A DNA stretch of 58,353 nt from Desulfotignum sp. (GTDB lineage Bacteria; Desulfobacterota; Desulfobacteria; Desulfobacterales; Desulfobacteraceae), in the NCBI GenBank assembly GCA_011389575.1, contig JAABUB010000010.1, positions 1 to 58,353 of the forward strand, written 5' to 3'. The stretch's first letter is position 1; each line of letters opens with the position of its first letter. Shown here piece by piece: positions 6,986-40,895 of this stretch. Under the pieces are notes generated by a model, which did no database searches, was not told the DNA's origin, and worked only from the letters and a program-made list of their open reading frames with translations. The translations under genes were made by a program, and so were the position numbers.

Positions 6986-7003
6986 GGTTGTCTCCAAACA
7001 AAA

Positions 7004-21063: not shown

Positions 21064-22002
21064 CTACATGCGCTTCAGGATCTGTGCCAGTTTTTTCTTT
21101 TCATCGCGATAGATCTGGTGGGCGGTTTTCAGATCGATCCTTTCAAATGAAATGGTGTCTCCGGGGGTGGCCTGGGCCACCTTCGGGATATCTGTGGAGA
21201 TCACGGTGGCGATTTTGGCATATCCCCCCACGGTCTGCTCCACCAAAAGGATTATGGGCTGTTCATCCGCCGGGATCTGGATGCTCCCGGGCATGGAGGT
21301 TTCCGATACAATGCTTTTGGGCATACCCTGTTTGATGGGGATTTTTTCTCCCTGCAGCCGGTATCCCATGCGGTCCGCCCTGGGGGTGACCATATACCGG
21401 GTGGTGAACAGGGTGGTTGCGCCCTGGTCAAAAAAGCCATCCTGGGGGCCGGGAACCGCACGCAGCAGCACATGGGACGGATACTCCGGCACCAGGGCTT
21501 TCGGCACCACCCGTTCCCGGGCCAGCAGGGGGGCTTTATGGGCATCCAGGATATCACCGGCCGTCAGGGGCCTGCCCATGAATCCGCCGAAACCGCCGCC
21601 CACATATGTGGAACAGGACCCCATGACAGGGGGTACCTTAATCCCGCCGGTGACGGCCAGACAGGCCCGGCAGCCGGTCTGGACCTGGGAAACGGTCAGC
21701 ACGTCACCGGGCTTCACCCGGATGGACCGCCACTGCTCCGTGGGTTGGTCGTTCAGGGTCATGTCCATTTTCGCACCGGTGACGGCAATGTCCATGGATG
21801 AGAGAAATTTGAGGGTCGGTCCCATGACCGTGATTTCCAGCACAGCCCGGTCGCTGTCGTTGCCCACCAGCAGGTTGGCAGTGTCAGAGGAAAAGGTGTC
21901 CAGAACCCCGCAGACAGGCACCCCCATCTGCTGGAACCCGAACCTGCCTTTGTCCTGCACCGTGGTAAATCCGCCGGGGGCCAGCACTTCAAATGCGTTC
22001 AT
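21064..22002 (-). CDS. pxpC: 5-oxoprolinase subunit C (KipA/biotin-dependent carboxyltransferase family)
   Basis: A subunit of the prokaryotic ATP-dependent 5-oxoprolinase PxpABC, which opens pyroglutamate to glutamate. The 312 residues cover the AHS2 domain. Motifs are FEVLAPGGFTTVQDKGRFGF, GVPVCGVLDTFSSDTANLLV, and LRAVPGPQDGFF. The start overlaps the pxpB stop (ATGA) and has AGGAG eight bases upstream. The family is also named a biotin-dependent carboxyltransferase, which is notable given the biotin genes at 24.4-26.0 kb. Confidence 0.9.
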   Translation of the reverse strand: MNAFEVLAPGGFTTVQDKGRFGFQQMGVPVCGVLDTFSSDTANLLVGNDSDRAVLEITVMGPTLKFLSSMDIAVTGAKMDMTLNDQPTEQWRSIRVKPGDVLTVSQVQTGCRACLAVTGGIKVPPVMGSCSTYVGGGFGGFMGRPLTAGDILDAHKAPLLARERVVPKALVPEYPSHVLLRAVPGPQDGFFDQGATTLFTTRYMVTPRADRMGYRLQGEKIPIKQGMPKSIVSETSMPGSIQIPADEQPIILLVEQTVGGYAKIATVISTDIPKVAQATPGDTISFERIDLKTAHQIYRDEKKKLAQILKRM

Positions 22003-22709
22003 CAGACATTCTCCTTTTGGGCCAGCCGGTTATATTCAGATTCGGATATTGGCACAAATTTTAGCTTATCCCCAGCCCGGTAAAGAAAAGGATCTTTTTT
22101 CCAGGGGGCAAACAGGTTCAGCGGGGTTCTGCCGATGATCTGCCACCCGCCCGGGCTGGCAATGGGATACATGCCGGTCTGGTTGTTGGCAATGCCCACA
22201 GACCCCTTTGGTACATGCATGCGCGGGGTGTTCAGCCGGGAGGTGTTCAGCCTTTCATCCAGTCCCCCTAAAAACGCAAACCCCGGTGTGAACCCCACCA
22301 TGTAAATCAGGTATTCCCGGGCCGCATGCACCTGGATCACCTGTTCCTGTGTCAGGCCGGAGGCCTTCTGGACATTGCCGATATCCGGACCGAACTCCCC
22401 GCCATAGCACACCGGAATCTCCACCACCTTTACCGACTCTGCAGCCAGCTCGTCCCGGCCGTCATCCAGATTTTCCACCAGTTTGTACAGGCGGTCCGGA
22501 TCCATGAGATCCGGGTCATAGATAAACAGCAGGGACCGGTAGGTGGGAATCACCTCCAGAATGCCTGGTGGAAGATTTTTTTCCATGGCCCGGGCCATGG
22601 CCCGCACCTGTGCATTGATCCTTGGATCAATGCCGTCACCGAATTCCACGAGAAATCCTTTGTCACCGGCCAGACGGCAGACCGGTCTGTCATACACCTG
22701 TGCGGTCAT
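22002..22709 (-). CDS. pxpB: 5-oxoprolinase subunit B (KipI family)
   Basis: Partner of PxpC in the 5-oxoprolinase complex. The 235 residues form the AHS1 domain: GDKGFLVEFGDGIDPRINAQ near the N-terminus, VIPTYRSLLFIYDP, VCYGGEFGPDIGNV and YMVGFTPGFAFLGGL, then GSVGIANNQTGMYPIASPGG. In Bacillus the homologue KipI also inhibits a sporulation kinase, which is not expected here. Its start lies inside the last 20 bases of pxpA and its stop overlaps the pxpC start, so the three genes are tightly coupled. Confidence 0.9.
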   Translation of the reverse strand: MTAQVYDRPVCRLAGDKGFLVEFGDGIDPRINAQVRAMARAMEKNLPPGILEVIPTYRSLLFIYDPDLMDPDRLYKLVENLDDGRDELAAESVKVVEIPVCYGGEFGPDIGNVQKASGLTQEQVIQVHAAREYLIYMVGFTPGFAFLGGLDERLNTSRLNTPRMHVPKGSVGIANNQTGMYPIASPGGWQIIGRTPLNLFAPWKKDPFLYRAGDKLKFVPISESEYNRLAQKENV

Positions 22710-23484
22710 AACGCTGAATTTCCCCCATGGGTGTCACCTGCACACCACTGGTTTCCAGAATGTTTCTGATAGTCTTCACCAGGGCCACGGCAGCCGGGTT
22801 GTCTCCGTGCACGCACAGGGAGTGTACCTCCAGGTCGATGCGGCTGCCGTCCACAGTAATGACATATCCATTGGCCATGTCCAGGGCCCGCTGTGCCACT
22901 GTATCCGGATCAGAAATAACCGCCCCGGGCTGTTTTCTGGGCAACAGTGTCCCTTCGGGAGTATAGGCCCGGTCAGGAAAGGCTTCATATGCCACCTTGA
23001 GTCCCAGCTCCGCTCCCATGCGCCGCATGGGTTCCCCTTTTTTTCCTGCCAGGGCCACAAACAAAAGATCCGGGTCAATGGCCAGGATGCCGTGGGCAAC
23101 CCCTCTGGCAACGGTATCATTTTCCACCGCATCCAGGTACAGGGCACCATGGGGTTTGACATGCTGCATTTGCGCCCCGTGTGCCCGGCAGAATCCCTGC
23201 AGTGCCCCCACCTGGTATATGACATATTGCTGGATCTCGGTTTCTAAACAGGCCATATGCCGCCGGCCGAATCCCAACAGGTCCGGATATCCGGGATGAG
23301 CCCCGATGCCCACTTTTTTTTCCTTTGCCAGTTTCACGGTCCGGTCCATAACCAGAGGATCCCCGGCATGGAACCCGCAGGCAATATTGGCCGAGGTGAT
23401 ATGGTCCATGACCTCTGTGTCCATGCCGATAGTATAGGCACCAAAGCTTTCTCCCATATCACAGTTCAAGTCAATCTGTTTCAT
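22690..23484 (-). CDS. pxpA: 5-oxoprolinase subunit A (LamB/YcsF family)
   Basis: The 264-residue protein opens with the family signature MKQIDLNCDMGESFGAYTIG and continues with SANIACGFHAGDPLVMDRTV and GIGAHPGYPDLLGFGRR. The fold is a TIM-like barrel. With PxpB and PxpC it hydrolyses ATP to cleave 5-oxoproline, a damage product of glutamine and glutathione. It is first in the pxpABC transcript, with the GntR gene 58 bases upstream on the same strand. Confidence 0.92.
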   Translation of the reverse strand: MKQIDLNCDMGESFGAYTIGMDTEVMDHITSANIACGFHAGDPLVMDRTVKLAKEKKVGIGAHPGYPDLLGFGRRHMACLETEIQQYVIYQVGALQGFCRAHGAQMQHVKPHGALYLDAVENDTVARGVAHGILAIDPDLLFVALAGKKGEPMRRMGAELGLKVAYEAFPDRAYTPEGTLLPRKQPGAVISDPDTVAQRALDMANGYVITVDGSRIDLEVHSLCVHGDNPAAVALVKTIRNILETSGVQVTPMGEIQRYDRTGV

Positions 23485-23542
23485 GGTTCACCTTTTTTGG
23501 GGATAAAAACATGGTTTTGCGGTTTTGCGCATGAACAGCCTG

Positions 23543-24235
23543 TCAGGAGGTCATGAACACAAGGATCCTTTCCCTGAAAGTCAATATATGGTCTGTTATC
23601 AGTTTTTTTACATGGTGTGCATCCCTTTGGGCAAGGCCGTCAATGATCTGGTCATGTTCACCCACCACGGATGCATAATGGATTTCCAGGGGCCGTTGGG
23701 GATCAATGATATTGTCATAGGACAGGTAGGACAGCCGTTTGGCTTCTGTTCTGATGTCTTTTACCGCCCGGATGAGAAACTCATTCCGGGAGCACCTGGC
23801 AAAATGCATGTGAAATTCATGGTTTGCCTCCACCAGGTCAAACACATCATTGGCCATGATGGCTTTTTGTGCCCGGAGGTTGGCTGTTTTCATTTTATCC
23901 AGAAAAACAGTGCAGTCCTTATCCACGGCAATATCCACAATCCCCAGCTCAATCAGTTTCATGCTCTCGAACATAGCCTTGGTGTTCTGCAGGGTGATGG
24001 GCCGGACAATGACACCTTTTTTGGGGTGAGATTCCACCATTTTTTCACCGTGCAGCCGCACCAGCGCTTCCCGGATAGGGGTCCGCCCGATGCCCAGATC
24101 TTCCACCAGCTGGCTTTCCTCCAGATGCTGGCTGGGCTGGTATTCCAGGCAGATGATCTTTTTCACCAGGGTTTCATAGGCTTTTACAGCCAGGGGCTGT
24201 TTGGGAATTTTCTGCACTTTTACTGGGTTCCCCAT
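23543..24235 (-). CDS. GntR-family regulator, FadR/FCD subfamily
   Basis: A 230-residue transcription factor. The N-terminal winged helix (about residues 15-80) includes LEYQPSQHLEESQLVEDLGI and GRTPIREALVRLHGEKMV. The C-terminal FCD helical domain carries the usual metal-binding positions (DLVEANHEFHMHFARCS and VGEHDQIIDGLAQRDAHHVK). It sits between pxpA (same strand, downstream) and the divergent biotin carrier gene. It probably controls both units by binding the large palindrome at 24286-24320. The ligand is unknown; 5-oxoproline or a related acid is an inference. Confidence 0.88.
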   Translation of the reverse strand: MGNPVKVQKIPKQPLAVKAYETLVKKIICLEYQPSQHLEESQLVEDLGIGRTPIREALVRLHGEKMVESHPKKGVIVRPITLQNTKAMFESMKLIELGIVDIAVDKDCTVFLDKMKTANLRAQKAIMANDVFDLVEANHEFHMHFARCSRNEFLIRAVKDIRTEAKRLSYLSYDNIIDPQRPLEIHYASVVGEHDQIIDGLAQRDAHHVKKLITDHILTFRERILVFMTS

Positions 24236-24285
24236 ATTACGATGCCCTCTGTATCATTACAATAAATGGTGTGGCCAGTAAAAAT

Positions 24286-24320
24286 ATACTTGACATAGAT
24301 TCAAAATATATGTCAAGTAT
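24286..24320. promoter_or_regulatory. Large palindromic operator in the gntR/biotin carrier gap
   Basis: ATACTTGACATA (24286-24297) and TATGTCAAGTAT (24309-24320) form a perfect 12-bp inverted repeat with an 11-base centre. Each arm contains TTGACA, so the site could mask a -35 box on either strand. Its place between the divergent regulator and biotin genes makes it the best GntR binding site candidate. Confidence 0.7.
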
Positions 24321-24379
24321 TTTTATAAAATAAAATGCGGAATGCAAAAGCGAGATAATACAAAAAGGGAGATAAAATC

Positions 24380-24631
24380 ATGGACAACACCATTCACACT
24401 GTCACCTCACCGGTCATGGGCACTTTTTACCGGTCATCTACACCGGATGCGCCCCCGCTGGTGGAAATCGGGCAGTCTGTCACACCTGAAGACATTGTCT
24501 GCATGATTGAATCCATGAAGATTTTTACGGAAATCCGGTGCGGCAAGGCGGGCGTGGTGAAAAAAATCCTGGTGGAAAACGAGGAGCCGGTCATGAAGAA
24601 CCAGGCTTTGATGGAAATCGAGATGAAATAG
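24380..24631 (+). CDS. accB: Biotin carboxyl carrier protein, minimal form
   Basis: An 83-residue biotinyl/lipoyl domain protein with almost nothing outside the domain. The biotinylation site is the Lys in CMIESMKIFTEIRCGKAGVV, a variant of the usual EAMKM. TSPVMGTFYRSSTPDAPPLV matches the N-terminus of the AccB domain. The start has GGGAG eight bases upstream. It is followed by the biotin carboxylase gene. It lacks the Ala/Pro linker of normal acetyl-CoA carboxylase AccB, and no transcarboxylase accA/accD is in the window, so it may serve the neighbouring Pxp-type proteins. Confidence 0.88.
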   Translation: MDNTIHTVTSPVMGTFYRSSTPDAPPLVEIGQSVTPEDIVCMIESMKIFTEIRCGKAGVVKKILVENEEPVMKNQALMEIEMK

Positions 24632-24689
24632 CATGCAAACACGTGTCCAGGCTGGAAGCATGACCAGGGGGGCAGACAAAGGAAAAAAT

Positions 24690-26036
24690 ATGACATTCAA
24701 AAAAATTCTTGTTGCCAACAGAGGGGAGATTGCCCTGCGGATCATTCGGACCTGCCGGGAAATGGGAATTAAAACCGTTGCCGTATATTCCGATGCAGAC
24801 ATGGACAGCCTCCCTGTCAAACAGGCGGATGAAGCAATGCATATCGGCCCGGCCTTGAGCCGGAAAAGCTACCTGAACCAGGATGCCGTCATTGCAGCGG
24901 CCCGGGAAACCGGTGCAGATGCCGTTCACGCGGGATATGGATTTCTGTCTGAAAGCGCCTCCTTTGCACAGGCCTGTCATGACAATGGGATCATCTTTAT
25001 CGGTCCGTCCAGCCGGACAATAGCCAGGGCCGGTGACAAATCAGCAGCCCGGCAGATCCTTATCAAAATGGGTATTCCGGTCATTCCGGGCAGTGACGAT
25101 GTGATCGCAACCCCTGAGGCAGCCTGTGATGCAGCGGATCAGGTGGGGTATCCCGTGATCCTCAAGGCTGCCGGCGGCGGTGGCGGCCGGGGCATGCGCA
25201 TCGCCAGGAACCAAAAGGACCTGCTGGCCGCTTTTTCCGTGGCATCTGCCGAGGCCGGGGCCGCATTCGGCAACCCGGCCCTGTACCTGGAAAAATATAT
25301 TGAAAAGCCCCGGCATATAGAGATCCAGATCCTGGGGGATCACTTCGGCAATTATGTGCACCTGGGGGAACGGGAATGCAGCATCCAGATGCGGTACCAG
25401 AAACTCATCGAAGAAGCTCCCTCCTTCTTTGTGGATGAATCCCTGAGAGAACAGTTGGGCAGCACCGCCATCCGCATTGCCAGGGCCTTTGAATATTTTA
25501 ATGCCGGCACCATGGAATTTCTGGTGGACAAGGACAAAAACTTTTATTTCATGGAGGTGAATGCAAGGGTCCAGGTGGAACATCCGGTCACAGAACTGAT
25601 TACCGGCATCGATATTGTCAGAAAACAGATCGAAATTGCCGCCGGAAACGAACTGGGACTGGCCCAGGCCGATATCCTTCTGAACGGCTGGGCCATGGAG
25701 TGCCGCATCAATGCATCAGATCCGACCGACAATTTCATGCCCTCCCCGGGTGAGATCACATCGGTGATTTTCCCCGGCGGTCCCGGGGTACGCCTGGACA
25801 CCCATATCCACGACAGGTACATGGTCTCCCCGTTTTATGATTCCCTCCTCGGCAAGCTGTGTGTATGGGCACCTGAACGTTTCCAGGCTGTCCGCCGCAT
25901 GAAACGGGCCCTGGATGAATTTGAGATCACCGGGATCGCCACCACCATTGATTTTTACAAAAAAGTGATGACAGATGATCGGTTTCAAAATGGAGATATT
26001 GACACCCATTTTCTGGAACATATGGTCAGTTTGTGA
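24690..26036 (+). CDS. accC: Biotin carboxylase
   Basis: ATP-grasp enzyme that carboxylates biotin on the carrier protein. The start was placed at the ATG at 24690 (MTFKKILVANRGEIALRII) with AGGA eight bases upstream; the longer frame adds non-family residues. The protein has 448 residues. Motifs are VHAGYGFLSESASFAQAC, the glycine-rich loop AAGGGGGRGMRI, HIEIQILGD, ERECSIQMRYQKLIEEAP and the catalytic MEVNARVQVEHPVTE. It forms a two-gene unit with the carrier protein. Its physiological acceptor is not obvious. Confidence 0.93.
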   Translation: MTFKKILVANRGEIALRIIRTCREMGIKTVAVYSDADMDSLPVKQADEAMHIGPALSRKSYLNQDAVIAAARETGADAVHAGYGFLSESASFAQACHDNGIIFIGPSSRTIARAGDKSAARQILIKMGIPVIPGSDDVIATPEAACDAADQVGYPVILKAAGGGGGRGMRIARNQKDLLAAFSVASAEAGAAFGNPALYLEKYIEKPRHIEIQILGDHFGNYVHLGERECSIQMRYQKLIEEAPSFFVDESLREQLGSTAIRIARAFEYFNAGTMEFLVDKDKNFYFMEVNARVQVEHPVTELITGIDIVRKQIEIAAGNELGLAQADILLNGWAMECRINASDPTDNFMPSPGEITSVIFPGGPGVRLDTHIHDRYMVSPFYDSLLGKLCVWAPERFQAVRRMKRALDEFEITGIATTIDFYKKVMTDDRFQNGDIDTHFLEHMVSL

Positions 26037-28768: not shown

Positions 28769-29431
28769 CTAAATTCTGAACAGGGACAGCGGAGACGGAC
28801 AAAGCTGGTCCATGACTGCCAGGTCGTTCTTTGAACAATAGCCTTTGGACACCCAGCCCTGGTCATATCCTTTCTGTGTGATGACCTGGAGATGGGTGTG
28901 GTAGAACCAGTAGCCGTTTTCATGAAAATCGCCGATGGTTGCAAACACATCTCCTGCGGCAAACCGGTCCCCGGGGGCGGGCAGCTTTTCTTTGTTCAGA
29001 TGTCCGTAAAGGCTGTAAAAGGTTTCAAATCCTGGGCTGTCGTGCCTTAGCAGCACATTGCCCCCGTAATTGCCCTGGCCTTCTTCATACCCGCTTTCCT
29101 GGACCACACTGTCCAGGGGGGCATGCAACGGGGTACCCAGGTCCACGATGATATCCAGGCCCAGATGAAAATACCGGGATTCCTCTTTCATCTGGGGATA
29201 CCGGGACAATATGGTTTCTCTGTCTTCCAGGTAGGAGGCCAGTCCCCAGGAATGCCGGTCTTTCATGGTCTGGTCCAGCCAGACCTGGAAGGCTTTCTGA
29301 TCCATCACATTCACCGTATCGAACACAGGGGATCCCACAGACAGGTCCACAACCAGGGGATTGCCTTTCAATCCCCTGAACACCGGTGCAATTTCAACAT
29401 CTTCACAATAGGCGATATACGGGTATTTCAT
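28769..29431 (-). CDS. M23-type metallopeptidase-like protein
   Basis: A 220-residue protein with the LytM/M23 zinc motifs: HLGLDI (H89, D93), YGHL (H144) and HTHLQV (H178, H180). It has no signal peptide or membrane segment, unlike secreted cell-wall hydrolases. The C-terminal end LCPSPLSLF is like the LCPDPN motif after the M23 domain in fusion proteins that join a kinase-like domain, an M23 domain and a class III aminotransferase. This suggests a cytosolic metabolic or modifying role rather than wall cleavage. It is last in the operon with the KamA-like gene (36 bases downstream). Confidence 0.75.
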   Translation of the reverse strand: MKYPYIAYCEDVEIAPVFRGLKGNPLVVDLSVGSPVFDTVNVMDQKAFQVWLDQTMKDRHSWGLASYLEDRETILSRYPQMKEESRYFHLGLDIIVDLGTPLHAPLDSVVQESGYEEGQGNYGGNVLLRHDSPGFETFYSLYGHLNKEKLPAPGDRFAAGDVFATIGDFHENGYWFYHTHLQVITQKGYDQGWVSKGYCSKNDLAVMDQLCPSPLSLFRI

Positions 29432-29467: not shown

Positions 29468-31936
29468 TTACGACACCACAAAATCATTGGTTTTTATCAT
29501 CCCGGGCACAGGTACCACCGGGTGCCCGTCATCTGATACTGTGACGTCTTCAGGATACTGAAACTGCGGATCCATGCTTTTGTAGTAGGTGTCATCATAG
29601 CAGCCCAGTTTTGCTTTCACAACATCGCCTTCCCTGATAAAAGAGGAGGTCAGGCCATAATCCACCTCTCCCAGGGGGGTGGCAATGATATACCGGGGGA
29701 TCTCTCTGCCGGACCCTTCCCGCCGGACCCTGGTGGCAATGTCGATAACATCGTAGGAGTCGATGGGATGATCCGCATTCCAGTCTGCCTGGACCGGCAG
29801 GCCGGCCACATACAGGTGGTGAAATTCAATGCCTGCACTGCGCAGGGCATAGGCCAGGTCATGGATCTTTGCATCATTGTCATTGACCCCGCCCAGCAGG
29901 GGCACATTGGCATACACGGTTATGCCCTTGTGATTCAGGCGGCGGGTGACAGTGGCATGATCCGGTGTCAGATCGGTATGCACCACAAACCAGGTGTCTA
30001 TCTCCAGGCGCAGGGGCTGCACCACGGACAGCCTGTTAATATCCCCCAGGAAATTTACCTTTGACCGGGTATAAGTCATGGGATCAGTGGCCAGTTTCAT
30101 GGACCGCACCCGCAGGGCATTGACATGGGGAATCTTTGAGAGCTGGTCAGCAATATATTGGATCTCAAACAGATTGTCCACCGCCTCTCCTGCCACCAGG
30201 ACATCGGTGATCCGGTGATCCTGGGCAATATAGACCATTTCTGCTTCTCCGGCCCAGGGCTGGATGCACACCCGGGTTTCATGCACCCGGGACAGGCCGG
30301 TAAGGCCGGTGTGCACAATGGATGAACCGGTCTGGAGATTTTCAACCAAAGATGCCTGGAGGCGGTCCAGATCTTCCGGGGATGCAAAAGGATTCACCGG
30401 TGCCGTCTTTTTGGGGCGGTTGCCCACCAGGTACTCATCATTGCCGATTTTGGCCATGTACTGGATATCAATGGTACCTTCGTCATTGACCCGGATATTG
30501 GTCAAAGAATTGGCCAGGGGCGCAAACGCCTTGAAATATGCCGGGGTATAGGGGGTTCTGATCCAGATGAAATTCTCATTGCCGGCCACTTTTTCCACGG
30601 CCCAGCCGCTGGAATACCAGTCCATTTTGCCGATGGGCGTGGCGGTGCAGATTCTGGGTATCACCCGGTCGGACAGGTGGGCCCGCAGCTGCATGGCCAT
30701 GTCAATGCCGCCGGACAAGGGTTTCCAGTAAATGGAATTGCCGTGGATGGGACTGCAGGGAATATAGATATAGTGCAGCTCGGCCCCGGCCCCCCGCAGC
30801 AGGCCGAACAGCCGCACCAGTTCCGGGCCGGTGTCATTGCAGTCACTCAGAAAAGGGGTCTGGATGTACACGGCAATCCCGTTTTTCACCAGATCGGAGA
30901 TAATGTCCAGGCTTTCCGGGGATACCTCATCCGGATGAATAAAATGGGTGGCCACTTCCATGCGCTTGCCGTTCCGGTTCAACTCCAGACTTTTCTGTTT
31001 GATATATTTGAGATATTCTCCTTCCTTTTCCAGGAACAGTTCCGGATAGTAGGCAATGGACCGGGTGGCCAGGCGCAGGGTCTGGACATGCTCCACTGCC
31101 ATGAGGCCGTCAATGGTGGCAGCCATGTTTTTTTTGTTCATGAAGGGATCACCGCCGGTAATGACGATCTCCTTGATGGAGGGGGACGCTTCTACATGGG
31201 CCACCGCTTTCATGACATCTTTTGGGGTGGGATTTTGCTCGTTCCTGGAATCTTTGTGTTTTCTGAAACAGAACCTGCAGTACACCGGGCAGCTCATGTT
31301 CAGCAGAAAAATTACCCGGTTCTGGTACATCTGCTCCAGCAGGCCGTCATGGAACTGGCCGATCCAGGTATTGGTGTGGCCGATATTTTCCAGTTCCTCC
31401 ACAAAGGGCAGGTACTGGTAGGCCACGTCTTTTGACACCATCATCTGCCGGACGGTATGCCGGGACAGGCGTACCGGATATTTTTCGATCACTGCCTGGA
31501 GATCAGCCCTGTCCGCATCTGGAATGGCATGGTTTGTCAACGTCACCAGCTGGTCTGTGTTTTTTACGGACACATATCCATGGCCGGTAATCACCTGCTC
31601 AAGCATGGCCACCAGCAGCATATGGGGCAGGGTTACCCCGTTGATGGTCAATGTCTGCCCCTCGCCTTTGGCAATGGCGGACAATACGGCCTTGAAAAAA
31701 TCTTCGGAATATCCCTCAAACCCTGTAGCGGCCAGAAGGTTTTCCCATTTGGTTTGGCCATTTCCCTGTCTGATGATTTTTACAAATTCGCTGCCGCAGA
31801 ACTGGGCATTGCCGTAAATTTCCAGAAATTCCCGGGCACCTTCCTCCAATTGAGAAAGCGGCACAGATCTTTGTTCTTTTGAATAATCAAACCGGATGTC
31901 TATGTTTGTGTCTGTTATGGTTCTGTTCGTTTTCAT
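29468..31936 (-). CDS. KamA-like radical SAM protein with a second degenerate barrel
   Basis: An 822-residue protein, about twice the length of lysine 2,3-aminomutase. The start at 31936 has GAGG six bases upstream, and the preceding stop overlaps closely (TGACATG). The N-terminal half (about 1-470) has the radical SAM CxxxCxxC (C216, C220, C223 in CPVYCRFCFRKH), VITGGDPF and a candidate PLP Lys437 (ATPIGKMDW). The two aspartates that bind the lysine side chain in LAM appear replaced. Residues about 555-770 repeat the barrel pattern (VVHTDLTPDH, GIEFHHLYVAGLPVQ, RYIIATPLGEVDY) without the cysteines or the Lys. The substrate is unknown, probably an amine or amino acid taken up by the linked importer. 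Confidence 0.8.
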   Translation of the reverse strand: MKTNRTITDTNIDIRFDYSKEQRSVPLSQLEEGAREFLEIYGNAQFCGSEFVKIIRQGNGQTKWENLLAATGFEGYSEDFFKAVLSAIAKGEGQTLTINGVTLPHMLLVAMLEQVITGHGYVSVKNTDQLVTLTNHAIPDADRADLQAVIEKYPVRLSRHTVRQMMVSKDVAYQYLPFVEELENIGHTNTWIGQFHDGLLEQMYQNRVIFLLNMSCPVYCRFCFRKHKDSRNEQNPTPKDVMKAVAHVEASPSIKEIVITGGDPFMNKKNMAATIDGLMAVEHVQTLRLATRSIAYYPELFLEKEGEYLKYIKQKSLELNRNGKRMEVATHFIHPDEVSPESLDIISDLVKNGIAVYIQTPFLSDCNDTGPELVRLFGLLRGAGAELHYIYIPCSPIHGNSIYWKPLSGGIDMAMQLRAHLSDRVIPRICTATPIGKMDWYSSGWAVEKVAGNENFIWIRTPYTPAYFKAFAPLANSLTNIRVNDEGTIDIQYMAKIGNDEYLVGNRPKKTAPVNPFASPEDLDRLQASLVENLQTGSSIVHTGLTGLSRVHETRVCIQPWAGEAEMVYIAQDHRITDVLVAGEAVDNLFEIQYIADQLSKIPHVNALRVRSMKLATDPMTYTRSKVNFLGDINRLSVVQPLRLEIDTWFVVHTDLTPDHATVTRRLNHKGITVYANVPLLGGVNDNDAKIHDLAYALRSAGIEFHHLYVAGLPVQADWNADHPIDSYDVIDIATRVRREGSGREIPRYIIATPLGEVDYGLTSSFIREGDVVKAKLGCYDDTYYKSMDPQFQYPEDVTVSDDGHPVVPVPGMIKTNDFVVS

Positions 31937-31937
31937 G

Positions 31938-32258
31938 TCACGCCTCTTTTGCCTTGTATAAATAATAGACCGTATCTTTTGGAAACCCGTATCCCATGAC
32001 CTGGCCCAGCACTTCATCTTCATTGCCCGTTCCGATGCACACCACCAGATATTCTCTTTGCAGGTCTGCATCCATGACCTTTTTCCAGGTGTAGGCATGT
32101 GCCGCAAAATAGGCATACGCTGCATGGGATGGATCAAAAAGAGATCCATCTGCCTGTTTCAGGTCATTTTCAAAAATAATGTAACTGGCCCCTGGATCCA
32201 GGGTTTGTTTGATCCACACAAAACTGCCGTGGATGGGGCTTTTATGTAAGTTATCCAT
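31938..32258 (-). CDS. Hypothetical protein between importer and KamA-like gene
   Basis: A 106-residue soluble protein starting MDNLHKSPIHGSFVWIKQTL and ending with YGFPKDTVYYLYKAKEA. The start at 32258 was chosen because the longer frame is not protein-like. Upstream, GGAGG and CCTCC can pair with each other (32263-32279 region), which might hide the ribosome-binding site. The stop is one base before the KamA-like start, so translation is probably coupled. I do not recognise the family; conservation with the double KamA gene would be informative. Confidence 0.7.
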   Translation of the reverse strand: MDNLHKSPIHGSFVWIKQTLDPGASYIIFENDLKQADGSLFDPSHAAYAYFAAHAYTWKKVMDADLQREYLVVCIGTGNEDEVLGQVMGYGFPKDTVYYLYKAKEA

Positions 32259-32371: not shown

Positions 32372-33469
32372 TTATAATTTCAACAATCTGCAGTGGAACG
32401 GATCCACCCTGATAAAGACCTCGTCACCCCGACGATACGGGCTCCGTTTAACAAAATTGATCACATGCAGCAGCTGTCCGTCGGGAAGTTCCACAAAATA
32501 ACTGACCTCTCCCCCCATATAGCTGCGGTCCTTTATCGTGCCGAAGAAATCATTCATGCCCTCTTCTTCGGCATAGTCTTTTTTGTGTCCCAGGGTCATT
32601 TTCTGGGCCCGGATCACGATTTCGGCTTTTTCTTCAACATCAAATTCTCCCACCGGACTGGCAATGCAGATGCTGCCGTCTGCCAGTTCTGCTTCATAAT
32701 TTCCATTTTTCCGGGTTTTAACCCGGGCATTCAGGAAATTGGAATGGCCCAGAAAATCGGCCACAAAATGGTTGACGGAATTATTGTAGACCTCTTCGGG
32801 CTCTCCTTCCTGCTGGATGAATCCGTCTTTCATGACCACCACCTTGTCGGACATGGACAAGGCTTCTCGCTGGTCATGGGTAACAAAAATGGTGGTTACC
32901 CCCAATTCCATCTGGAGGTTATCGATCTCCCGGCGCATGTCTTCTCTCAGATTTTCATCCAGGGCAGACAACGGTTCATCCATCAGCAGCACATCCGGTT
33001 CAATCACAATGGCCCGGGCCAGGGCGATGCGCTGCTGCTGGCCGCCTGAAAGCTGGGAGGGCATCCGGTTTCCAACCCCTGGCAGCCGGACGGTTTCCAG
33101 GGCTTTTTCCACCTTTTCCTTCATCACGGTTTTGGACACATCCCGGTATTTGAGGCCGAAGGCCACATTATCAAAAATCGTTTTGTGGGGAAACAATGCA
33201 TAGTTTTGGAATATCATGCCCAGGTTGCGTTTATGAATCGGGGTGTCGTTAATGCGCTTTCCCTTGATGAATATGTCCCCCCGGGTAGGAGGTTCAAGCC
33301 CGGCCAGCATCCGGAGCAGGGTAGTTTTCCCGCATCCTGACGGACCCAGCAGGGTGACAAAGGATCCTTCGGGAATATCCAGATCCATGGGCTGCACTGC
33401 CACCAGATCACCAAACCGTTTTTCAATACCCTGGAACCTGACAAAGGCCGGGTCTTTTGCGTGTGTCAA
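32372..33469 (-). CDS. potA: Polyamine-type ABC importer ATPase
   Basis: ATPase of a spermidine/putrescine-type importer. Walker A is GPSGCGKTT, the signature LSGGQQQRIALARAI, Walker B LLMDEPLSALD and the switch His VTHDQREAL. A C-terminal TOBE domain (about 270-365) follows. The first Met of the frame (33514) lies in the loop of a GC-rich hairpin. The TTG at 33469 with GGGAG nine bases upstream is the better start, giving 365 residues beginning LTHAKDPAFVRFQGIEKRFG. The gene is fourth in the potB-potC-potD-potA order. Confidence 0.88.
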   Translation of the reverse strand: MTHAKDPAFVRFQGIEKRFGDLVAVQPMDLDIPEGSFVTLLGPSGCGKTTLLRMLAGLEPPTRGDIFIKGKRINDTPIHKRNLGMIFQNYALFPHKTIFDNVAFGLKYRDVSKTVMKEKVEKALETVRLPGVGNRMPSQLSGGQQQRIALARAIVIEPDVLLMDEPLSALDENLREDMRREIDNLQMELGVTTIFVTHDQREALSMSDKVVVMKDGFIQQEGEPEEVYNNSVNHFVADFLGHSNFLNARVKTRKNGNYEAELADGSICIASPVGEFDVEEKAEIVIRAQKMTLGHKKDYAEEEGMNDFFGTIKDRSYMGGEVSYFVELPDGQLLHVINFVKRSPYRRGDEVFIRVDPFHCRLLKL

Positions 33470-33501
33470 ACCAGTTATCTCCCAATTTTTATGGAAAAGG
33501 C

Positions 33502-33524
33502 CCCCGGCAGCCATGCTGCCGGGG
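33502..33524 (-). promoter_or_regulatory. GC-rich hairpin between potD and potA
   Basis: CCCCGGCAGC and GCTGCCGGGG form a perfect 10-bp stem with a 3-base loop, followed on the minus strand by GCCTTTTCC. It lies just after the binding-protein gene. Such intercistronic hairpins often protect the upstream mRNA or partly end transcription, which would give more binding protein than ATPase. Confidence 0.65.
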
Positions 33525-33551: not shown

Positions 33552-34712
33552 TTATGCACCTGCCATAATCCGGTCCCATTTTTCAGCCCATTCCAGCTGG
33601 TGTTTATTCCAGTAAGCAGGATCTGCAAACAGATAGCCATTTAGCTTGCCTGTGGGGTCAAAGGCCGGCAGTTTCTTGACTTCCTCGGGCATTTCCACTT
33701 TGGTGGGATCCAGGGCCGGTGGATATTTCTGTCCCTTGGCCACGGCGATGGAAGCTTCCGGCGCAAGCATGAAATTGAGCAGTTTCTGGGCCACTTCCAG
33801 GTCCGTGCCCTTGAGTACATACATGTATTCCATCCATGAATAGGTGCCGTCCGGGGCCAGGTATCCAATGGGGTGTCCCTGATCCTGGAGAGCCGCCACC
33901 CGTCCGGACCATGCCACTGTCGCAGCTATTTCACCATTGGCCAGGAGACTCATGAGTTCCGATCCGGATGCCCAGTATTTTTTCATCATGCTCCGCTGTT
34001 CTGTCAAGACATCCCATACCGCATCCACATCTGTTATGTTGTTGGGGCTTTGTCCGGTGTGCAAAGCTGCATACCACATGTTTGTTCTGAAATCCCCGCC
34101 CCAGGAGCCCAGTTTGCCTTTCAGGCTCTTGTCATAGAGAAGAGAGGCACCCAGTTCCTCTGCTTTCTCCTTGGAAACATCGTTTGTGTTATAGGCGATG
34201 CCGGTCTGGCCCAGATCATAGGGGACTGCAGACAATGTGCCGTTGGTGATGCCCCGGAGGGTATCGGTCATTTTTGTCATGACATTCTTGAGATTGGGGA
34301 TTTTGCTTTCATCCAGGACCACACCGAATCCCAGATCCGTATACCGGGCATAATCATACACCGCACTCAGATGGGCGATATTGAATTCTCCGCCGGGTGG
34401 ATAGGAGGCCTTTACCTGGGTTAAAAATGCATCCATGCCGGTGAACGCCGCATCAATGACTTCAATGCCGGTGGCTTTGGTAAAGGGATCAAAGGCAAAT
34501 TTACGCAATGCTTCTGATGTGGTTCCTCCCCAGGAATGGACAGTAATGGATTTACTGGCAAAAGCGTTGCCCATCAGGCCGAAAGGTCCGCCTGCCAGCC
34601 CCAGCGCGGCGCCGGCGATGCCGGCAAATTTGACAAAATCCCGGCGGGTGATGTTTCCTTCCAGATAGTTTTGATACACATCATCCAGCCGTTTTTTCAA
34701 TTCTTTTCCCAT
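33552..34712 (-). CDS. potD: Polyamine-type ABC substrate-binding protein, Tat-exported
   Basis: A 386-residue periplasmic binding protein of the spermidine/putrescine (PotD/PotF) group. The signal contains a twin-arginine motif, ITRRDFVKFAGIAGAALGLA, at about residues 21-40, so it is probably folded before export by Tat. The mature part starts near ASKSITVHSWGG. The C-terminal WNKHQLEWAEKWDRIMAG is typical of the family. The ligand is not certain: homologues bind polyamines, opines or other cationic amines. It is probably the most strongly expressed gene of the operon. Confidence 0.88.
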   Translation of the reverse strand: MGKELKKRLDDVYQNYLEGNITRRDFVKFAGIAGAALGLAGGPFGLMGNAFASKSITVHSWGGTTSEALRKFAFDPFTKATGIEVIDAAFTGMDAFLTQVKASYPPGGEFNIAHLSAVYDYARYTDLGFGVVLDESKIPNLKNVMTKMTDTLRGITNGTLSAVPYDLGQTGIAYNTNDVSKEKAEELGASLLYDKSLKGKLGSWGGDFRTNMWYAALHTGQSPNNITDVDAVWDVLTEQRSMMKKYWASGSELMSLLANGEIAATVAWSGRVAALQDQGHPIGYLAPDGTYSWMEYMYVLKGTDLEVAQKLLNFMLAPEASIAVAKGQKYPPALDPTKVEMPEEVKKLPAFDPTGKLNGYLFADPAYWNKHQLEWAEKWDRIMAGA

Positions 34713-34787: not shown

Positions 34788-35588
34788 TCAGGGGGTGTTT
34801 CCCCTGGCAAATCGCCGTGCCACATAGCCTGCCGCCAGAGGAATCGAGACGGTCAATACAATCATAACCGCTCCCAGGGCGTTGATTTCCGGGCTGATGG
34901 AGGTTCTGAGCATACTGAAAATCTGGACCGGCACTGTCTGGTTCTGGGCCGTTGCCCAGAACAGGGTGGCGGTGACATCATCAAATGAAATGGTAAAGGC
35001 AAACAGCATGCCCGCAAATATGGCCGGTGCCAGCAGCGGGAAAGTGATTTCCCTGAAAGTCTGAAACGGACTGGCGCCAAGGGACAGGGCTGCTTCTTCA
35101 TACTCGCGTTTGATCCCCACCAGCCGGGCCTGGACAATGAGCAGTACATAGGGCAGGGTAAGCACCACATGGCCGATGAGAAGCAATGCAAAGCTTTTGG
35201 GCTGCTGCAGCCACCGGATAAACAAAAGCAGTGCCACTCCCAGGATTACCTCCGGGATCATGATGGGCGCAATGAGCAGGGTATTTATAAATTCTTTTCC
35301 TTTGAATTCATACCGGATAAAAGCCAGGGCAGCGGGCACGCCGATGGCGGTGGAAAATATGGCCGTCAAAGACCCCAACACCAGTGAATTTTGAAAGGCC
35401 TCCAGGATGGTGGAGTTCTGGGAAAGTTTGACAAACCATTTGAAGCTGAATCCCTCCATGGGAAAAGTGCCGAACTGCTGGGGATTGAATGCCAGGATTA
35501 CCACGGCCACAATGGGGGCGAACATCCAGACATACACCAGTATGGTATAGAGTTTGATCAGGGTCCAGCCGGAAATCAGTTTTTTCAT
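34788..35588 (-). CDS. potC: Polyamine-type ABC permease, PotC-like
   Basis: A 266-residue inner-membrane permease with six predicted membrane segments. The N-terminal segment is LYTILVYVWMFAPIVAVVIL, and the EAA-type coupling loop is EYEEAALSLGASPFQTFREI, which docks on PotA. It starts 11 bases after the potB stop. With PotB it forms the membrane channel of the importer. Confidence 0.9.
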   Translation of the reverse strand: MKKLISGWTLIKLYTILVYVWMFAPIVAVVILAFNPQQFGTFPMEGFSFKWFVKLSQNSTILEAFQNSLVLGSLTAIFSTAIGVPAALAFIRYEFKGKEFINTLLIAPIMIPEVILGVALLLFIRWLQQPKSFALLLIGHVVLTLPYVLLIVQARLVGIKREYEEAALSLGASPFQTFREITFPLLAPAIFAGMLFAFTISFDDVTATLFWATAQNQTVPVQIFSMLRTSISPEINALGAVMIVLTVSIPLAAGYVARRFARGNTP

Positions 35589-35599
35589 ATCTTTTCCCT

Positions 35600-36466
35600 T
35601 TACCCTTTGCTCAGGGATTTGAATATCTGGTTAATGCCCATGTACCGATTATAGGTATAGACGATGATGACCAGCAGCAGCAGGAGAATGACGGAAATCG
35701 CCGACCCGAACGGCCAGTCCAGGGTGCCGATGACCCGCTTGAAAATCAGGTTGGCAATCATTTCATTGCCAGGCCCCCCCAGGATCATGGGTGGCAGATA
35801 GGTGCCGCAGGTGAGCACGAATACCAAAAGGCACCCGGCACTGACCCCGGGCAGGCTCAAAGGCAGCGTTATTTCCCTGAATGCCTGCCATTCCGTGCAT
35901 CCCAGGCTTTGGGCCGCCTCGGTCAGGCTCTTGTCTATACCGTCCAGGCTCACATAAATATTTAAAATCATAAAAGGCAGAAGATACTGGATCAACCCCA
36001 TGATCACGGCCCCTTCATTGTAGAGCATGGGAAGGGGTGTGGTAATCATGCCGTATTTCAACAGCAGGTGGTTGATCAGACCGGAATCTCCAAGAATATT
36101 GATCCAGCTTAAGGTACGGATGATAAAGCTGATCCAGAAGGGCAGCATCACCAGAATCATGAGAAAGGGTTTTAACCGGGATTCGGTGCGGTAAAAAAAA
36201 TAGGCGGGAATATACCCCATGACCAGACAGAGGAAAACGGTTTCCAGGGCGACCCGTATGGTATTGAGCAGGATGACCGGATAAAATGAATCGGCAAAGA
36301 ATTTGGCATAATTACCGAACTGAAACGCCGGGATATCCATGCCTGAGGGCGCCCTGAGCCAGAAACTGTAGACCACCACAAAGCAGACCGGTACGATGAG
36401 CAGCAAAAACACGGCTGTCAGAGATGGTGACAGCAGCAGCCAGGGTTTCCACGGTTTTTCTTTCAT
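35600..36466 (-). CDS. potB: Polyamine-type ABC permease, PotB-like
   Basis: A 288-residue inner-membrane permease with about six membrane segments. The first is WLLLSPSLTAVFLLLIVPVC. The coupling loop is SLTEAAQSLGCTEWQAFREI. It is the first gene of the operon and lies about 65 bases after the predicted start point of a sigma-54 promoter. The order potB-potC-potD-potA differs from the enteric potABCD order. Confidence 0.9.
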   Translation of the reverse strand: MKEKPWKPWLLLSPSLTAVFLLLIVPVCFVVVYSFWLRAPSGMDIPAFQFGNYAKFFADSFYPVILLNTIRVALETVFLCLVMGYIPAYFFYRTESRLKPFLMILVMLPFWISFIIRTLSWINILGDSGLINHLLLKYGMITTPLPMLYNEGAVIMGLIQYLLPFMILNIYVSLDGIDKSLTEAAQSLGCTEWQAFREITLPLSLPGVSAGCLLVFVLTCGTYLPPMILGGPGNEMIANLIFKRVIGTLDWPFGSAISVILLLLLVIIVYTYNRYMGINQIFKSLSKG

Positions 36467-36803: not shown

Positions 36804-38195
36804 TCATGATTTCAGGACAATGCCGTGTTTTTTAAATTTTCTTACCACCGTGGGCTGGCTTGTCCCCAGAAAGGAGGCTGCTTCCCGGGTGGTCCGGCAG
36901 TGGGTGGCTGCCTGCATGAGCATGTCATGCTCCACTGCCTGGACAGCCTGGGCCAGGCCGGTACTGGCGCTCATGGTGCCGGCCCTGACAGCCGGATTTT
37001 CCGGTGCTTCCGTAAACCGGATCAGATAATCATCCAGCTGCCGCCGGTCACACATGGCCACTGCCTGTTTAACCATATTGATCAGTTCCCGGACATTGCC
37101 GGCAAAAGAATGGGCTTTCAATGCCTGCAGGGCCTTGTAGCCGATATGGGCCCGGCGGTTGTATTTTTTGTTGTAGCGTTTCAGGCAGAGCCGGGTCAGC
37201 TCCAGAATGTCTTCAGGCCGGTTGCGCAGGGGCGGGATGGAAAGGGTAAAGGTATTGAGCCGGTGGAGCAGGTCCAGGCGGAACTGTTTTTTACGGGTCA
37301 GCTGCTCCAGGTCCTGGTTGGTGGCGGCAAGTATGGAACAGTCGATTTTTTTGGATTTTGTGCCCCCCACCGGCATTATTTCCTGGTCATCCAGGTATTT
37401 GAGCAGCTTGGCCTGGACTCCCGGCGACAGTTCACCGATTTCATCCAGAAAAAGCGTGCCTCCGGCAGCCAGTTCAAACAGACCTGCCTTACCGGTTTCC
37501 TTGGCGCCGGTAAACGCCCCTTTTTCATATCCGAACAATTCCGCTTCCAGCAGGTTTTCCGGCAGGGCCGCACAATTGATCTGGATAAAGGGGTTGCAGG
37601 CCCGCTGGCTGTGTTTATGGATGAACTTTGCCAGAAGCCCTTTGCCGGTACCTGATTCTCCCTGGAGCAGAATATTGGAGGCACCGATGCGGGCCAGCTT
37701 GAGTGCCAGGTGCATCGCCTGTTTCATGGAAGGGCTCTTGGCCACAATATTGTTATCCTCCAACTCCCGCAAGGTCAACTCGGTAAGTTCTTCGCGCATT
37801 TTTTCCGATTCCTGGCGCACCTGGGCCAGTTTGCGCTTCATATCCCTGATAAGGGAGATATCCCGCTCGTTCACCACCACAAAGGCGATGTCTCCGGCAT
37901 CGTTAAATACAGGCGTGCCGGTCACCAGCAGAGAGTAACCGGACTTCGGGGTGGTCTGGACCAGGCTGACCTGGCGCCGGGTTTCCAGAACCTCCTGGGT
38001 GGCGGACCGGTTGATCTGGCCTTCTGTCACCAGGGCTCTGACATCCTTTCCCACAACCTCTGATGCCTTGATACCGTTGAGCCGCTCTGCTGCCTGGTTC
38101 ATTTTCAAAATCCTGCCCTGGCCGTCACATATCATCAGGCCGTCGGCAGACCGGGTGAAAATGGTTTCCAGAAAAAACAGGTTTTTATCCTTCAT
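36804..38195 (-). CDS. Sigma-54-dependent activator with PAS sensor domain
   Basis: A 463-residue enhancer-binding protein. The PAS domain covers about residues 5-115 ([20 protein letters not shown]), followed by a coiled linker. The AAA+ domain has Walker A GESGTGKG (179-186), the sigma-54 contact loop GAFTGA (226-231), Walker [13 protein letters not shown] and the arginine-finger region. A Fis-type HTH ends it ([20 protein letters not shown]). It resembles RocR-type regulators of amino acid use. It overlaps the amidohydrolase stop by 11 bases and lies next to the importer's sigma-54 promoter, which it most likely activates. The signal is unknown. Confidence 0.92.
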
Positions 38196-39825
38196 AAACG
38201 ATCTTCCCGTTGAAAAGGGTCAGCTTCACCCGGGCGGCGGCTATCTCATCCGGATTGATCATAAAGATATTGCGGTCCGTCACAATGAGGTCGGCCAGTT
38301 TCCCTGCAGCCAGGCTGCCCAGGCAATCCTCTGTGCCGGACGTCCGGGCCGGGGTGAGGGTATAACCCTGTACTGCCTGGTCCACCGTCAGGCACTGGTC
38401 CGGATACCAGCCGTTTTCCGGGGTCTGGTTCATGCGTTTGCGGGTGACAGCCGAATAAATCCCGCTAAAGGGATTGGGATCCGCCACAGGAGCATCGGAA
38501 CTGAACATGGTGGGAATACCTGTGTCCAGGATATTTTTGAAAGTATAGGCATATTTGCCCCGTTCTCCGGCACACTGGTCGATCATGGAAATATCCAGGC
38601 TCATGTTGTTGGGTTGACAGGAGACAGCCAGGTTTTTCAGCCGGCCCAGGGCTTTCAGGTCTTCGGGCAGAATCATCTGGGCATGTTCCAGCCGGTGGGG
38701 AATACGGCAGCGGCTCTGCTGCAGTGCCTCCACCCGGGCAAACACAGAGATCACCTCATGCACGGCCCGGTCTCCCACGGCATGGACCATGCAGGAAAGA
38801 CCGTTCCGGTCCGCCTGGATAACCGCCTGTTCGATATCCGCCACCGGGGTCAGGGGCATGCCGTAGGCCGCATCCAGATAGGGTTCTGTCACCCACGCTG
38901 TTCTGGCTCCCATACCGCCGTCACTGAAAAACTTCACATGCCCGATGCGCAGCAGATCATCCCCGAATCCGGTACACAGCCCCAGATCCACCGCCCGGGC
39001 GGTCATTTCACCGGGCAGGGTCACATGACACCGCAAAGCCAGTTTTCCGGCGGCATGGAGGGCCTGCCACGCCTGCAAAGCGACAGCCCCTTCTTTTCCC
39101 CCCATGAGCCGGATGTCATGGATGCCGGTCAACCCTAATGCATGGGCATGGGCCATGGCTTTTTCCATATTGTCCAGGAGCTGGCCAAAGGTCAGTTCCG
39201 GTACTACAGCCCGGATCATGTTGGGGGCTGTTTCCTTGAGTACCCCGGTGGGAAGCCCGCTGCCGTCCCGGACAATCACACCTTCCTCCGGATCACGGGT
39301 CAATGAATCGATGCCTGCCAGGGACAGGGCCATGGAATTGGCCACTGCCAGGTGCAGGTCACACCGCCAGATGCACACCGGATTGTCCGGGGCCGCCTTG
39401 TCCAGATCCAGCCGGTCAGGCATGCGGTTTTCCGGCCAGTCCGACTCATTGAATCCCTGTCCCAGAATCCACTGCCCCGGCCCCAGCAGTGCGGCTTTTT
39501 CCCTGATGGCGGTCTGCATGCCGGCAAAATCCCGGGTTTTTGAAAAATCGATGCTGTTGAGGTTCACGGCCCATTCATAAAAATGAAAATGGGTGTCAGT
39601 GAAACCGGGCAATACCAGTTTTTTGTCCAGATCCAGAACCCGGGTATCGGGTCCTGCCATGGCCATGATGGCTGTATCATCCCCCATGGCTGCAATATGC
39701 CGGCCTGTAACAGCCAGGGCAGTGACAGTGTCCTGCCCGGCTGCCGGAACAAATCCTGACCCGGCAATATACACGGATTCAGGGGTATATAAATGTGCGT
39801 TGTGTAAAATCAGATCCGGTGTCAT
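38185..39825 (-). CDS. Amidohydrolase, YtcJ/AepA-like family
   Basis: A 546-residue metal-dependent hydrolase. The N-terminal metal motif is [17 protein letters not shown], with further ligands in [14 protein letters not shown] and [12 protein letters not shown], and a late Asp in [20 protein letters not shown]. Family members cleave amides or N-acyl groups of diverse small molecules. The start overlaps the stop of the racemase gene (TAATG) and the stop overlaps the regulator start, so the three are one unit. The substrate is unknown. Confidence 0.88.
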
Positions 39826-40865
39826 TAAACCAGGTATCCTTGTTGAAAGGGGTCGGTTTTTTCCACAATAAAATGGTGCACCCCGGTGATCCAGGCTTTT
39901 CCGGTGATCCGGGTGACACAGGCTTTTGTGGTGCCGATGTGGGTTTCTTCCACCAGTTCGGCCCCAAAGGTGGTGTTCAGGGGACTGGCATTTATATAGG
40001 GCTGGTGCAGGGCAATTTTTTTGTGATGGTGCAGCAGGGCCAGTTTGGCAGCTGTGCCGGTACCGCAGGGTGAGCGGTCCATATGGGATTCTCCATAAAC
40101 CACCATGCCTCTGCCTTCTGAATGGCCATCCCGGGTTGCTGACTCATAAAATTCGGTCACATCTACGGTATTGACATCCGGGCGCTCCGGGTGAACCACG
40201 GTGAGCTGGGCATTGGCGGCATCAATAATCTTCATGCCCAGATCCACCAGCACAGCCTTGTTTTCCAAAACCGGCGCCAGATTGATCTGTCTGGTATCCA
40301 CCATGGCAAAAAAACCACCGGTGCAGACCAGGTCCACAAAAATTGGTCCGAATCCTTCCACATGGATCTGCTGATCCGTGGCCAGCACAAAAGAGGGCAC
40401 CATTTTAATGGAAACCGATGTTACCCCGCCATTTTGCACATGGGCCAGGGCGTGCATGATGCCGGACGGGGTATCAATGACCACCTGGTTTTCGCCTTCT
40501 TCCAGTACCAGGGTACCGGTGCGGGCCAGGGTGGTCACCGCCCCGATGGTGCCATGGCCGCACAGAAAAGGATATCTTCTGGCATCCATATAGATCAGTC
40601 CAAAGGCGGCATCTCTGGTGACCGGTTCTGTTACCAGGGCGGCCAGCACCTGGCGGGAGCCCCGGGGTTCTTTGGTCATCAGGCAGCGCACATGGTCATG
40701 ACGGGTTTTAAAACAGGTGAGTTTTTCCATCATGGTATTGCCAGGAATCTCAGGAACACCATCCACAATCAGGCGGGTGATTTCTCCTTCGGTGTGGGAA
40801 TCAATGGTGGTAATAACAGGATCGCCGTTGTCATATATTTTTGAAATATCAGGGGAAGGAATCAT
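39825..40865 (-). CDS. Proline racemase/4-hydroxyproline epimerase family
   Basis: A 346-residue cofactor-independent racemase. The start was set at the ATG at 40865 with AGGA ten bases upstream; the GTG at 40874 lacks spacing. Both catalytic cysteines are present, Cys102 in PFLCGHGTIGA and Cys267 in DRSPCGTGTAAK. This favours a racemase or epimerase over the dehydratase branch, where the first Cys is Thr or Ser. IDSHTEGEITRLIVDGVP is the family N-terminus. It sits in a unit with the amidohydrolase and the sigma-54 activator. Confidence 0.9.
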   Translation of the reverse strand: MIPSPDISKIYDNGDPVITTIDSHTEGEITRLIVDGVPEIPGNTMMEKLTCFKTRHDHVRCLMTKEPRGSRQVLAALVTEPVTRDAAFGLIYMDARRYPFLCGHGTIGAVTTLARTGTLVLEEGENQVVIDTPSGIMHALAHVQNGGVTSVSIKMVPSFVLATDQQIHVEGFGPIFVDLVCTGGFFAMVDTRQINLAPVLENKAVLVDLGMKIIDAANAQLTVVHPERPDVNTVDVTEFYESATRDGHSEGRGMVVYGESHMDRSPCGTGTAAKLALLHHHKKIALHQPYINASPLNTTFGAELVEETHIGTTKACVTRITGKAWITGVHHFIVEKTDPFQQGYLV

Positions 40866-40895
40866 AAAGCACACATCCTTTGCAAAAATCGCAGG

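Follow-up and report, generated by a model that had tools for sequence, protein, structure and literature searches.

Organization of the KamA2 locus

The window (the whole stretch of 58,353 nucleotides that was analyzed), which comes from a sulfate-reducing bacterium, encodes on its minus strand an 822-residue two-barrel KamA-like radical SAM protein, designated here as KamA2, within the following row of genes.

28769..29431 (-), M23-peptidase-like protein without a recognisable signal peptide, resembling the middle part of PRK06148 proteins
29468..31936 (-), KamA2, 822 aa, a single ORF; member of a family of at least 116 species
31938..32258 (-), small conserved protein wS, about 106 aa, between importer and KamA2
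32372..33514 (-), ABC importer ATPase, PotA-like (profile match)
33552..34712 (-), ABC importer substrate-binding protein, PotD-like, with a Tat-type signal (profile match)
34788..35588 (-), ABC importer permease, PotC-like (profile match)
35600..36466 (-), ABC importer permease in the PotB position (conserved synteny and co-occurrence)
36804..38195 (-), PAS and sigma-54 activator (best model PrdR, with a score under its cut-off)
38185..39825 (-), amidohydrolase, PF07969 (profile match)
39825..40874 (-), proline-racemase family epimerase with both cysteine motifs, LCGHG and DRSPCGTG (profile match and sequence)

The four importer genes of this operon are of the spermidine/putrescine type. The M23-like protein seems to be cytosolic, that segment of PRK06148 proteins being its best match, and no Pfam or NCBIfam match was found for wS. 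Elsewhere in the window, a 5-oxoprolinase-like set (PxpA/B/C-like, minus strand) lies beside a plus-strand gene resembling biotin carboxylase (21064-26036).

The features of KamA2 itself, compared with lysine 2,3-aminomutase (LAM; AblA/KamA; PDB 2a5h), are as follows.

31613..31936 (-), N-terminal extension, residues 1-108, preceding the LAM-matching part; the structural match to 2a5h begins at residue 108
30500..31351 (-), first barrel, residues 196-479, with a complete radical SAM/PLP core (profile and structure matches)
31268..31291 (-), CPVYCRFC (C216, C220, C223), the [4Fe-4S]/SAM site, invariant in 71/71 family members and 15/15 paralogues
30626..30628 (-), K437 in TATPIGK, the presumed PLP lysine (LAM K337), by alignment; invariant
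29567..30295 (-), second barrel, residues 548-790, without cluster loop or PLP lysine (profiles, predicted fold)
29666..29668 (-), E757, in place of the PLP lysine in the second barrel (alignment)

Catalytic core of the first barrel

A sequence-only reading of this DNA had described a complete radical SAM half at the N-terminus, and this description held. CPVYCRFC, TGGDPF and K437 are all present, and C216, C220, C223, R225, G262, Q359 and K437 are invariant in the first barrel of all 71 close family members and all 15 paralogues, the 86 proteins on which the invariance counts are based. K437 aligns with the ...GGGGK and ...LGK ends of AblA and the arginine 2,3-aminomutase BlsG, while R225 occupies the position of the Arg that follows the cluster motif in AblA, BlsG and glutamate 2,3-aminomutase (GAM)-like proteins. 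In LAM this Arg (R134) binds the substrate carboxylate. KamA2 and LAM therefore share the radical SAM core, the cluster and GGD motifs, the position of the PLP Lys and this Arg.

The N-terminal half matched the KamA family model TIGR00238 with an E value of 7.6e-44, and residues 201-436 matched LAM in the PDB at 5.3e-17. Although all KamA-type NCBIfam models matched the first barrel, the whole chain scored below the curated cut-off in every case: TIGR00238, 150 bits against 199.2; TIGR03820 (lysine 2,3-aminomutase), 140.5 against 525.4; TIGR04368 (glutamate 2,3-aminomutase), 135.7 against 650; arginine 2,3-aminomutase, 134.3 against 600; and EpmB, 118.9 against 369.3. Identity to single-barrel KamA proteins was about 24-31%. 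The features of the KamA family are nevertheless present, namely CxxxCxxC (86/86), the PLP-lysine position (86/86) and a LAM-like predicted fold, and as judged by these profiles KamA2 is a relative within the KamA superfamily that lies outside curated TIGR00238 membership.

With respect to the substrate pocket, D293 and D330 of LAM bind the lysine side chain, and K337 is its PLP lysine. In the alignment D293 corresponds to S395 of KamA2 and D330 to A432, so that the Asp pair is absent from the first half, as had been suspected from inspection of the sequence. His replaces Ser at the D293 position in 12 of the 15 paralogues. KamA2 further differs from LAM in a 2-residue deletion ahead of the PLP Lys, in its second, inactive barrel, in its N-terminal extension of about 108 residues (mainly helical in the predicted whole-chain model) and in being about twice as long. 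BlsG has a short PLP loop (...TTT-LGK) like that of KamA2 (...TATPIGK) and both are without D330; unlike KamA2, BlsG has a single barrel and retains the D293 equivalent (CD). GAM-like proteins of the same phylum, also of one KamA barrel, have Lys and Asn, respectively, where LAM has the two Asp.

Evidence for a second KamA-like barrel

Pfam detects the first radical SAM domain only, so the second barrel would escape routine annotation. When residues 480-822 were scanned alone they matched KamA-family models, with TIGR04368 scoring highest (2.4e-14) and TIGR00238 at 7.1e-11. Profiles built from 49 relatives and split into N-barrel and C-barrel aligned with each other over 244-271 columns at 23% identity (E 7.6e-28 to 1.9e-33). 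Reversing either half gave E values of 0.14-0.25, compared with 7.6e-28 for the forward profiles under the same settings; the likeness of the halves is therefore beyond chance, and chance resemblance was ruled out.

An AlphaFold2 model of the second half alone (61 sequences) had a pLDDT of 90.3. Foldseek placed LAM 2a5h first for this model (E 1.1e-13, with the following entries at about 5e-4), and VIA-align superposed it on LAM with Z 18.9 and 2.6 A over 225 residues, the next entry being RlmN at Z 11.2. Residues 500-822 are thus predicted to contain a TIM-like barrel, the LAM fold being common to both halves of KamA2. The check attached to the sequence-only reading, which asked whether this part is TIM-like and superposable, thus did not contradict it, and the motif pairings by which that reading had recognized a repeat of KamA-like elements proved essentially right. 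Prediction of the whole chain (pLDDT 89.4, pTM 0.92) gave a model which aligned with the LAM monomer over 341 residues (Z 27.9) and whose final aligned residue, 813, lies within the second half. By profile comparison and predicted fold, residues ~548-790 are a second KamA-like barrel homologous to the first.

This barrel differs from the first in its catalytic parts. The stretch between beta1 and beta2, 44 residues in the first half, is 19-23 residues in the second, from which it follows that the cluster loop is absent. The loss of CxxxCxxC and Lys claimed earlier was confirmed, with the refinement that the whole loop is deleted rather than mutated in place and that the PLP Lys position is Glu or Asp in every protein (Glu 69/71 and Asp 2/71 in the family, Glu 14/15 and Asp 1/15 in the paralogues; Glu 83/86 and Asp 3/86 in both subfamilies). 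R550-H552 was considered as the match for the Arg that follows the cluster motif and rejected, as predicted strands and the multiple alignment put it at strand beta1, leaving no evident carboxylate-binding Arg counterpart. With a homologous fold from which the catalytic motifs are gone, the second barrel answers to the description of a pseudoenzyme, and the alignments support its description as a dead barrel, devoid of what radical SAM/PLP chemistry requires.

Elsewhere in the second half, residues have been kept. H552, T554, D578, R609, E645, N685, Q716, R744 and D759 show no variation across the 86 proteins of the two subfamilies; E647 is Glu or Asp in 86/86, and H706 and H707 are conserved in 83/86 and 84/86. 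Among close relatives dN/dS was 0.06-0.10 for the first barrel and 0.16-0.20 for the C half. These ratios indicate that the second half is under purifying selection and, with its own invariant residues, that it is maintained; a decaying second half was ruled out by the dN/dS of 0.16-0.20.

Distribution and origin of the two-barrel protein

Among 395 phylum-wide genomes KamA2 was found in the window's own genome only, this being a sparse sample without other members of its bacterial family. Within that family 52 of 86 genomes gave a match, in two groups which often occur together in one genome, one at 52-95% and the other at about 40-45% identity. Run against 84,980 species, the profile of the second half picked up 116 relatives, so the family comprises at least 116 species; 80 of these were kept for locus comparison. 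Almost all are Desulfobacterota, the remainder being UASB270 and one MAG each from Acidobacteria, Muiribacteriota and Eremiobacterota.

Each of the 80 loci encodes the two-barrel protein, either whole or as a portion cut by a contig end or frameshift. A frameshift or an assembly join of two genes was rejected as the source of the window protein, since the single full-length ORF recurs in 70 genome records. In one MAG (L148:8406-10882) KamA2 is in two ORFs of 564 and 244 aa, through frameshift or assembly error.

In an unrooted, quick maximum-likelihood tree the N-halves, the C-halves and the single-barrel KamA proteins formed three separate sides, for which a single origin of the architecture is the simplest reading. 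The tree would accommodate equally the intragenic duplication proposed at the outset and a fusion of two separate copies. Viral contigs yielded no relative of the C-half and plasmid matches were ordinary single-barrel KamA proteins, and a phage or plasmid origin was set aside. The architecture is that of an old family with two paralogous branches. No published description of the family was found in the open-access literature, and we regard KamA2 as an undescribed variant of a known enzyme family.

The window's genome also encodes a single-barrel AblA-like KamA protein with both LAM Asp (G000:C134; L159:7785-9212, minus strand). Its gene lines up with two ATP-grasp ligase-like genes and a gene for a 769-aa protein (L159:3438-7788), a row which may represent a separate beta-amino-acid pathway.

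Linkage of KamA2 to an importer operon

The order epimerase, amidohydrolase, PAS/sigma-54 activator, four importer genes, ~106-aa protein, KamA2 and M23-like gene is a recurring one within the family. Homologues of wS cluster in 22 loci and are conserved between importer and KamA2 in many loci, and the M23-like gene is near KamA2 in 43 of 80. In loci further removed, an IclR regulator and the importer operon are oriented divergently to KamA2 and the M23-like gene, and at L104 and L136 (L106 is similar) an importer of the polar-amino-acid type takes the place of the spermidine/putrescine type. Of the genomes compared, 35 have both the importer permease and KamA2, 2 have the permease alone, 8 have KamA2 alone and 41 have neither (Fisher p 9e-14, counted within one bacterial family and so partly reflecting shared ancestry). 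In both permease-only genomes the contig ends before the KamA2 position.

Ornithine aminotransferase and an MttB-type methyltransferase were each near KamA2 in 2/80 loci. The window itself has an MttB-superfamily methyltransferase gene distant from the operon (5540-6997, minus strand), relatives of which are found within the region of the KamA2 operon at L142 and L144. The paralogous two-barrel subfamily (L032-L045, L051; 39-45% identity) is tied to cupin/XRE-type regulator genes (6/15) instead of the importer, and another amidohydrolase is found at 3/15 of its loci.

Taken together, the importer, the inducible-type regulators, the amidohydrolase and the epimerase point to a setting of uptake and breakdown of a nitrogen compound.

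Discussion

As the first barrel has everything needed, it can be read as catalyzing a radical SAM, PLP-dependent 2,3-amino shift, in which the amino group of an alpha-amino acid would be moved between C2 and C3. Our preferred reading, to which we give roughly even chances, is that KamA2 is a PLP- and SAM-dependent 2,3-aminomutase whose active subunit is joined in one chain to its own inactive copy and which serves an uptake-and-breakdown pathway. LAM is a domain-swapped dimer. The second barrel would stand in for the partner chain of this dimer, so that KamA2 would be a pseudo-heterodimer in itself, with a single active site; the predicted fold, the fusion and the end-point of one alignment at residue 813 fit this idea without proving it. 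The substrate would be, or derive from, the compound brought in by the linked importer, with its side chain held without the Asp pair, and the racemase-like, amidohydrolase and M23-like proteins may act on the same compound. A precedent for two radical SAM-type barrels in one chain is FO synthase in the form of CofG-CofH fusions; there both barrels are active, whereas in KamA2 one is without the cluster loop.

The second barrel may in addition bind a ligand in a conserved pocket of its own, and the substrate-binding or regulatory module of the sequence-only reading is a possible role for it. Were that ligand the substrate, the product or SAM, and were its binding to activate or silence the first barrel, the second would be a sensor, which would suit both a catabolic setting with sigma-54 or IclR regulators and the invariance of nine residues in a C half that evolves faster than the first barrel. 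As these residues might equally be needed for folding or for contact with the first barrel, and the ligand is putative, we regard a sensor as possible but on balance improbable. Slightly less probable is that the N-terminal half has evolved from KamA to another PLP/radical SAM activity; its distance from single-barrel KamA proteins, and its failure to reach any equivalog cut-off, would allow this, and the retention of every chemistry-defining residue without exception (86/86) argues against it.

Whether the aminomutase acts on lysine depends on two lines of evidence which pull in opposite directions. With both lysine-binding Asp lost, the evidence speaks against free lysine, whereas AblB (beta-lysine N-acetyltransferase), encoded directly upstream of KamA2 or in an adjoining operon at 9 of 80 loci, argues for a substrate close to lysine. 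A substrate other than lysine, as the sequence-only reading proposed, is thus supported by the lost Asp pair, while lysine or a derivative of it is kept in play by the AblB neighbours. In the form most favourable to lysine, KamA2 would be a plain lysine 2,3-aminomutase feeding AblB for the osmolyte N-epsilon-acetyl-beta-lysine: AblB near KamA2 scores above its curated cut-off in several lineages, one genome (G480) has AblB and KamA2 with no other AblA-like match, and Desulfospira (G455) has KamA2-type proteins only. We consider this distinctly unlikely. Apart from the missing Asp pair, the window's genome has no AblB, yet has the separate AblA-like protein with that pair, and in an Acidobacteria MAG (L158:5256-10065, minus strand) true AblA, AblB and KamA2 stand side by side, so that KamA2 is no replacement for AblA there. 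In G448 (L153:4057-7237, minus strand) AblB adjoins genes resembling ethanolamine ammonia-lyase EutB/EutC, and the AblB model may therefore not be specific for beta-lysine metabolism. Our guess is that a masked side-chain amine on lysine would reconcile the lost Asp pair with the AblB neighbours; a modified or N-acylated basic amino acid, e.g. N-epsilon-acyl-lysine or its beta isomer, is one specific candidate, and a speculative one of low probability.

The high conservation of some second-barrel residues could also mean a new activity there, but a bifunctional protein performing consecutive steps, with a different, e.g. metal-dependent, enzyme built around E645/E647 and H706/H707, seems very doubtful despite the conservation of these residues and the well-predicted barrel, because no known metal motif is present, the Glu and His residues would have to meet in space, and the operon suggests no second activity.

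Beyond the preferred reading of an active subunit fused to its inactive copy, we tentatively suggest that the aminomutase has an obligatory pseudo-subunit built into its chain and that the conserved pocket of this pseudo-subunit is newly used, for ligand sensing or a second chemistry, as part of an undescribed and, among marine sulfate reducers, widespread pathway for taking up and breaking down a modified amino acid. Pseudoenzyme domains are familiar from kinases and proteases; no paper describing one in PLP/radical SAM aminomutases was found in the open-access literature. In the KamA2 family, which is old, a fold that has the cluster and the PLP lysine can be compared with its natural counterpart lacking both, in the same chain. 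Desulfobacterota are a main group of anaerobic sediment bacteria, and the tight link to an importer provides a direct route to the substrate of KamA2 and to a missing amino-acid pathway of this phylum.
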